Source: Scenedesmus sp. ARA3
Lineage: Eukaryota > Chlorophyta > Chlorophyceae > Sphaeropleales > Scenedesmaceae
Assembly: GCA_004335835.1 (NCBI GenBank)
Contig: RWJK01000642.1
Coordinates: 286-12,765, forward strand
Direction of reading: 5' to 3'
DNA: 12,480 nt
Shown piece by piece: positions 293 through 11,841 of the stretch; positions within the stretch are counted from its first letter, which is position 1; the number at the start of each line of letters is the position of its first letter. The notes beneath the pieces are model-generated. The model ran no database searches, was not told where the DNA came from, and worked only from the letters and a program-made list of their open reading frames with translations. The position numbers and the translations under genes were made by a program.

Positions 293-740
293 AAAACCAA
301 TTCTGCACATATCCAAACGGCTCGCGCGCTCGTGCCTGCAGCTGTCCAATGTATTGCAGCGCACGCATGTCGCCACCTCACGGTGCACTGAGGCGACAAC
401 GTTACCATCAAAGTCGTGTTGTTGGCACCTCACAGGTAGAGCGAGGCTGACAACATGATGCCGCGCCGCAGCGTCTCGTTACTTTCAACAAAGCGCTGCG
501 CCTGCATCAGCATGAAGCACGCTGCACATATCCGGACGGCTCGTGCACGTGCCGCAATCTGCCCGCAGCTGTCCGATGTACTGCAGCGCACGCATGTCGC
601 CACCTCACGGTGCACTGAGGCGACAGCGTTATAACAACAAAGTCATGTTGTTGGCACCTCGTAGGTAGAGTGAGGCGGAGAACATGATGCCCCGCCGCAG
701 CGTCTCGTTACTTTCAACAAAGCGCTGCGCCCGCACAGAT
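293..740 (-). repeat. Tandem duplication of terminal exon plus 3' flank, about 228-bp unit
   Basis: Two direct copies lie roughly at 293-515 and 518-740. The flank block gcacgcatgtcgccacctca starts at 361 and 588 (offset 227). The terminal-exon-like block (QRFVESNETLRRGIM) lies at about 430-501 and 660-735. A third member is the true last exon, aligned at GTAGAG positions 436, 665 and 899. The middle copy has lost the stop at the normal place and reads on into RGANNMTLLL. Confidence 0.85.
430..501 (-). CDS. Possible alternative terminal exon of HEN2
   Basis: This copy of the last exon encodes AQRFVESNETLRRGIMLSAS, then LYL and TGA (430-432). It has an acceptor-like gatgcag just before GCG at 501, giving 72 nt, 24 codons including stop, in phase 0. 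It could therefore be spliced from the exon ending at 1435 and would produce a C-terminus seven residues shorter than the main form. No RNA evidence is available; it may equally be a decayed duplicate within the 3' flank. Confidence 0.4.
   Translation of the reverse strand, partial: AQRFVESNETLRRGIMLSASLYL

Positions 741-11841: not shown

Follow-up and report, generated by a model that had tools for sequence, protein, structure and literature searches.

In tandem exon duplication and mutually exclusive exons, additional exon-like segments with splice sites lie next to an exon, and local head-to-tail units of about 100 bp, with partly shared junctions and higher-order units, are characteristic of minisatellites and variable number tandem repeat (VNTR) arrays. 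Tandem duplication is treated as an accepted route of intron gain in a review (PMC3443670), and a duplication in potato RdRp is reported to cross an intron-exon boundary and to carry the splice signals of the parent intron (PMC4974935). Introners are sets of introns that resemble one another at many places in a genome and have been reported from green algae (PMC9860276). Here, arrays of partial exon copies were analysed within the introns of a helicase gene of the green alga Scenedesmus sp. ARA3, in a stretch of 12,480 nucleotides (the window) comprising nearly all of a 12,765-bp contig (RWJK01000642.1, labelled C443) of an 87.3-Mb genome assembly of 1,567 contigs, and in further genes of that assembly. 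In a literature search, no paper listed was recognisable from its title or the opening of its abstract as describing rows of exon ends within introns, most subscription papers lying outside the search and absence being unproven. In the reading preferred here, at a probability of roughly one half (0.52), these are minisatellite-like arrays of exon ends, born by tandem duplication across the exon edge and kept spliceable and coding-intact by exchange between the copies and the working end.

Exon ends repeated head to tail within introns

On the minus strand of the window, 17 exons (called a to q in the direction of transcription) joined across GT-AG introns gave a single open frame of 773 amino acids ending in TGA, in which a Pfam scan detected Helicase_C, MTR4 stalk, MTR4 beta-barrel and DSHCT domains. 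The gene (below, MTR4) is therefore assigned, from its sequence, as a predicted MTR4/HEN2-type helicase. Its 5' half, beyond position 11841, is missing from the contig. Parts of two chaperonin genes, CCT1 and CCT2, which were reached by a genome search with chaperonin exons, were modelled in the same way (ten exons in each) and have the same arrangement. Before counting, matches in which CAG-type repeat exceeded 40% were removed, as were the weaker of any overlapping matches; the three genes then held 91 copies in total, at 41 of 68 internal exon edges, with at least one copy in 28 of 34 introns. Most copies (87 of 91) were found at E<1e-4, and inverted matches numbered four (16-23 bp). When exons were compared with the DNA of the other genes, 74 such control tests produced seven matches, one of them the resemblance between CCT1 and CCT2, so that about three or four of the 91 copies could be due to chance.

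Copies touching the start of their source exon lay upstream of it in 44 of 44 cases, and copies touching its end lay downstream in 39 of 39; the remaining eight touched neither exon end (one upstream, seven downstream), and no copy broke the rule. In introns holding both kinds, the donor-side copies preceded all acceptor-side ones (12 of 12). None of the 91 copies was a whole exon or had more than one of its exon's splice sites. The copies were direct and head to tail, with a median spacing of 127 bp (minimum 93, one of 382; 91 spacings), and most units measured 93-250 bp, made up of an exon end (approximately 20-87 bp), usually together with its splice site, and of intron sequence of some 45-150 bp. 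Unit length was specific to the family: log lengths varied less within families (variance 0.026) than in shuffled data (0.065; p=0.0002, 25 families). Beside the inner edge of the unit, similarity exceeded the 99% random level for 19 of 61 pairs and for 12 of 20 families. Some self-alignments continued through several units, intron sequence included (behind exon b, for instance, over 354 bp at 82%), and a few units that are young throughout were present at exon d7 of CCT2 (117-bp units, 98.3% over 176 bp) and exon h of the helicase gene (223-bp units, 97%). The arrays thus consist of direct head-to-tail repeats of similar length, as minisatellites do, and their unit lengths, together with the junctions of those 12 families, are as expected of head-to-tail duplication with shared junctions.

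The original prediction, made for the helicase gene, had described a strict order, with 5' exon fragments and their acceptors only upstream and 3' fragments with donors only downstream, and had explained it by tandem amplification of the exon-intron boundary itself, independently at many sites. The order holds throughout, unit lengths and junctions support head-to-tail amplification of edge-straddling units at many edges independently, and boundary-spanning tandem repeats, for which it had proposed a self-alignment of this locus and of other genes, were present in the introns of MTR4, CCT1 and CCT2. A part of the claim that was not supported is the targeting of the boundary: the order would arise in any case from tandem duplication across an edge together with the need for an intact mRNA, by our reasoning, so that no mechanism aiming at boundaries is needed. 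Of 45 duplicate families within the three genes, 41 included an exon edge, three were intron-only (one starting no more than 3 bp from a donor, another being a pair 864 bp apart) and one lay inside exon i, whereas random units placed in the collapsed genes contained one boundary in 51% of cases (44% when at least 18 bp of exon was required) and intron only in 34.5%. This excess is real, yet it is no proof of targeting. Intron flanks exceeded the 99% random level of similarity in only 5-20% of comparisons (17-20% for source-copy flanks); since most flanks have diverged, equally old duplications confined to introns would often go unnoticed.

Copying of exon ends into introns by a mobile element or by templated insertion would fit the confinement of the similarity to the exon, as expected of a copied insert, and is nevertheless highly improbable: the orientation is direct save for the four short, chance-like inverted matches, 83 of the 91 pieces reach an exon edge, and two stretches of the helicase gene (8250-8870, an array, and 7000-7800) matched only their own locus in a whole-genome search in which very common words were skipped. 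No introner-like matches were found elsewhere with these two stretches, and an introner or other dispersed repeat was rejected on the same result.

Coding conservation, splice signals and a proposed origin

The copies are conserved at the level of codons and splice signals, a property that the original prediction did not mention and that poses the real puzzle. Differences between source and copy fell on codon positions 1, 2 and 3 in the ratio 81:78:298 (4,947 aligned bases), corresponding to a synonymous divergence (dS) of 0.32 and a nonsynonymous divergence (dN) of 0.043, a ratio of 0.135 (0.095-0.185 by bootstrap over 42 families). By gene the ratio was 0.10 (MTR4), 0.15 (CCT1) and 0.31 (CCT2), and a single new stop was present in 1,599 codons. 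Comparisons of copy with copy gave dS 0.29 and dN 0.070. In split-sample bins, copy-source dN remained flat (0.043, 0.039, 0.049 and 0.038) while dS rose from 0.22 to 0.58. Changes private to one copy, with at least three other copies agreeing with the source, were spread 12:14:17 over the codon positions and 15 of 43 were synonymous, the modelled neutral synonymous share being 0.24-0.35; source-specific changes, in families with at least four copies, comprised seven synonymous and no others. In the preferred reading, a copy would be nearly neutral now, and its lineage would have served as a working exon end until not long ago. The copies may also be under continuing weak selection.

A rival account of these data would be ordinary neutral tandem duplication anywhere in genes, with exon-bearing duplicates staying recognisable and the copies being decaying debris. 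It agrees with the near-neutral look of the strictly copy-specific changes, with the random reading frames of the copies and with the flanks, which have mostly lost similarity (50-bp gapped identity, median 0.63-0.66 against a random mean of 0.60), so that intron-only duplications would often escape detection. A neutral copy compared with a constrained exon should, however, reach a dN/dS of about 0.5 or more by our reasoning, far above the 0.135 found, and the splice signals remain much stronger than at random sites. Neither does copy-source dN grow with dS, which simple neutral debris does not predict and recent ancestry as a working end would; neutral debris is accordingly regarded as rather unlikely.

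Splice dinucleotides were retained in 38 of 44 acceptor-side copies (AG) and 34 of 37 non-terminal donor-side copies (GT), and only these were scored. The donor score at +3 to +6 was 2.74 in copies and 3.08 in sources, against -3.99 at random intronic GT, and the acceptor score at -15 to -3 was 3.10 and 4.52, respectively, against -5.32; the pyrimidine share at -20 to -5 was 0.684 in copies, 0.691 in sources and 0.48 at random. On the intron side, ungapped identity dropped to 0.43-0.55 within 10 nucleotides of the splice site. Retained dinucleotides and flanking signals far stronger than random would both be expected if the copies were in use, as spare splice sites in alternative or regulated splicing or as decoys, and were kept by selection. 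The other ends of the copies do not fit such a use, since by eye there was no splice-site (GT/AG) pattern at the inner edges, and alternative splicing at those edges was rejected for that reason. As read-through from the exon, 71 of 81 copies met a stop, 24 were in frame, 10 were open and only six were both, and two c4 copies lacking AG still differed from the exon at only three bases each, mostly third positions. Use in splicing is thus judged improbable. Coding extension of the exons was also rejected, frames being random and mostly closed, as was pairing of the intron halves into a hairpin: the folding energy of an intron's own halves (-83.6 kcal/mol) was close to that of swapped halves (-80.0; own halves stronger in 19 of 31) and of two 5' halves (-81.6).

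Orthologous exon ends from diverged strains would likewise combine a low dN/dS and diverged introns with intact splice sites, and such ends could have been stitched beside the true exon through an assembly artefact or a mixed sample. The array-bearing loci were, by eye, not on the longest contigs, and the assembly contains at least one gap of 50 N, in the CCT1 locus (L036) past the last modelled exon. The window, on the other hand, contains no N; unit lengths are common within families, as are unit junctions in 12 of 20 of them; donor-side copies come before acceptor-side ones in every intron holding both; complete young tandem units exist, as at exon d7 of CCT2; the kinesin genes are without clear copies; and the chaperonin matches, on 12 contigs, are about as many as one gene set would give. 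An artefact is for these reasons unlikely.

The preferred reading, by contrast, joins tandem duplication to exchange. A tandem duplication across an exon edge would, with good confidence, found the array and leave the full exon innermost. Splicing would then work on the innermost pair of sites, as under exon definition, and the outer copies would leave with the intron. The exon parts of approximately 20-87 bp could provide homology for unequal recombination or gene conversion, by which a copy and the working end would swap roles, as the flat copy-source dN leads us to infer. In the least secure step, the exchange would probably take place between diverged alleles, so that the copies come to resemble recent working ends: by our reasoning, exchange within one lineage should not push the ratio below about 0.5, and exchange between diverged alleles can. 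More tentatively, and with a good deal of doubt, the exon ends of many genes might be self-renewing arrays, in which spliceable, intact spares take turns as the working end.

Several points weigh against this origin. Exchange between diverged alleles should require a very high synonymous diversity, of about 0.2-0.3 by our reasoning, which has to be assumed. Copy-copy dN had neither a clean plateau nor a clear trend (0.048, 0.098, 0.053 and 0.098), and the dS of families ranged from 0 to 1.6. When private changes were polarised more loosely, with two or one other copies, 45 of 107 and 84 of 182, respectively, were synonymous, above the neutral share, so that the reading of the copies as neutral today draws on the strictest and smallest set. 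(The loosest set gave p 0.053 against a synonymous share of 0.40, a value which exceeds the modelled neutral share and was therefore not relied on.) Acceptor signals were weaker in copies than in sources, and composition may be partly inherited; 8 of 20 families had no junction pair alike beyond the 99% level; and some copies with near-identical exon parts had flanks no more alike than random, meaning either that the exon part alone was renewed or that flanks change very fast. Finally, the data come from one assembly and only three genes were modelled, all of them conserved and slowly evolving, with exon models built without transcripts.

Other genes and the layout of the helicase locus

Confinement to a single gene, as first supposed, did not hold. 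Besides CCT1 and CCT2, nine more loci (for chaperonins, tRNA synthetases and RNA polymerase) yielded 13 clear pairs of profile matches, all of which obeyed the order rule, and six unclear ones, and an MTR4-like paralogue (contig C441) had an acceptor-side copy by eye. The kinesin genes contained no clear copies among 150 of 163 matches on 32 contig strands, where the pair test flagged two pairs, each with a stop-holding match; the gaps between neighbouring kinesin exon matches had a median of 236 bp (69 gaps). With a similar E-value cut, 84 of 93 chaperonin matches gave 18 pairs in 4 of 11 loci, and the median gap was 868 bp in loci with copies against 339 bp in the rest; the pair test is a lower bound, as it misses the copies of CCT2, which falls among the rest. 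Adaptin loci had no such pairs, by eye only. About 58% of intron DNA in the three modelled genes belonged to array units (exon and intron part), the removal of which would shrink the median intron from 595.5 to 237.5 bp. This value is close to the 236 bp of the kinesin genes, so that in some genes the arrays seem to have been added to a basic length that introns have in common.

Genes differed sharply in this respect, many having introns of about 240 bp and match tables free of copies and others being full of copies (as seen among kinesin, adaptin and the chaperonin loci on C837 and C448). By eye, all array-bearing loci seen lay below position 80 kb of their contigs, with about a quarter of the others above it; array-bearing genes are perhaps located in a repeat-rich or low-recombination compartment. 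Eleven sampled stretches of the assembly (88 kb, of which 12.4 kb N) contained 16 local duplicate families, several of them with coding-like pieces of the same look. In the CCT1 introns, TTTAGGG (nine occurrences) stood mostly after donors and CCCTAAA (six) mostly before acceptors; such telomere-like motifs were rejected as a cause of the arrays, with 15 in CCT1, one in the MTR4 gene and none in CCT2.

Nearly all direct repeats in the self-comparison of the helicase locus join an exon end to the neighbouring intron. Copies, placed by hand from this self-comparison and then aligned, numbered 41, from 14 of the 17 exons, and a stricter automatic search of exons against the locus (E<=0.01) retained 37 of them, from 12 exons. 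The original prediction of about 40 partial copies from at least 11 source exons agrees with both lists. Where it spoke of nearly every intron, 13 of 16 introns carried at least one copy, or 12 of 16 with the stricter search.

All exons and copies of the helicase gene are on the minus strand and are given here in the direction of transcription. Exon a, the first on the contig (11732..11841), has one donor-side copy (11629..11670), the aligned part of which stops short of the donor. Exon b (10803..10970) has three acceptor-side copies (11017-11105, 11144-11232 and 11282-11361) and a donor-side copy (10663..10746) with nine differences, all at third codon positions. Exon c (10060..10209) is flanked by three acceptor-side copies (10300-10346, 10405-10465 and 10538-10590) and three donor-side copies (9632-9698, 9814-9893 and 9928-10007), and exon d (9408..9520) is followed by one weak donor-side copy (9301..9355), which the automatic search dropped. 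The largest array belongs to exon e (8874..9003), which has one acceptor-side copy (9058..9100) and six donor-side copies (8079-8102, 8165-8200, 8251-8304, 8352-8446, 8546-8601 and 8667-8761), the second of these again dropped by the automatic search. Two unit types alternate among the donor-side copies of exon e, with the exon part beginning at position 51/52 or at 89, and spacings of 192, 122, 192 and 105 bp form a higher-order repeat of about 314 bp (window 8079-8761). Exon f (7631..7780) has two acceptor-side copies (7843-7914 and 7954-8025) and two donor-side copies (7388-7443 and 7497-7559).

Exon h (6695..6832) has two young donor-side copies (6232-6321 and 6464-6544) in units of 223-232 bp, and exon i (5534..5998) has two donor-side copies, at 5133-5165 (dropped by the automatic search) and 5280-5357. 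Donor-side copies also follow exon j (4778..4844; copies at 4520-4590 and 4653-4695) and exon k (4267..4335; one copy at 4140..4185). Exon m (3113..3260) has three acceptor-side copies (3319-3369, 3443-3493 and 3560-3618) and exon o (1717..1851) five (1908-1985, 2041-2115, 2160-2220, 2256-2336 and 2393-2467), three of which differ from the exon at third codon positions only. Exon p (1435..1527) has one donor-side copy (1322..1363), the fourth to be dropped by the automatic search. The terminal exon q (893..985), which carries the TGA stop, has the two copies foreseen for it, both partial and located past the stop codon (428-508 and 657-734; 79 and 72 nucleotides aligned, unit 229-234 bp). Exons g (7144..7203), l (3782..3876) and n (2739..2878) were without copies, exactly as predicted.

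Runs of CAG/CTG stand directly beside many acceptors (980-1060, 3260-3290, 3877-3905, 9534-9555 and others), and the CAG of the acceptor often closes a CAG run. Both contig ends (window 1-400 and 12120-12480) look by eye like retroelement coding sequence, with no Pfam family above the cut-off. Among the best 120 of 5,651 database matches of the helicase protein, the closest was a EukProt entry (79% identity over 41% of the query), followed, among named proteins, by MTR4/HEN2 of green algae and land plants. By eye, the EukProt protein was without the pieces matching exons g, i, j and k and parts of h and n; the gene prediction behind it may have been misled by similar arrays in a relative.

Comparison with known systems

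With units accounting for well over half of the intron DNA in these genes, and the median falling to the array-free length without them, intron growth becomes a countable, local process, and exon-end arrays would be an unfamiliar way of building introns. If copies do exchange with the working end, coding sequence would be maintained outside the mRNA and recombination in introns would shape the evolution of exons; if the arrays were in addition self-renewing, introns would store the population's alternative exon-end alleles and grow by such traffic. The arrays also offer a test bed for how one site out of many strong ones is selected in splicing, and they call for caution when genes are predicted in genomes of this kind.

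Tandem exon duplication, as seen with mutually exclusive exons, differs in that whole exons are repeated, whereas here not one copy is a whole exon or has more than one splice site. Tandem duplication at exon edges is known, and what is new here is that it is repeated, occurs in several genes and leaves conserved copies. The potato piece also spans a boundary together with splice signals of the parent intron (PMC4974935). In intron gain by tandem duplication a new intron is made, with the duplicated segment supplying both of its ends, whereas here the copies are embedded in introns that already exist, with as many as six in succession. Introners (PMC9860276) are likewise intronic repeats with splice-competent ends. 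Those are similar introns genome-wide, however, while each array tested here resembles its own locus only, and the similarity covers exon sequence next to a single splice site, not both splice boundaries of an intron.

Minisatellites share with the exon-end arrays the local head-to-tail units, the junctions shared in part and the higher-order units, here those of exon e. Unlike minisatellites, the arrays are anchored on exon edges, one of their units is the working exon end, and conservation extends to the level of the codon.
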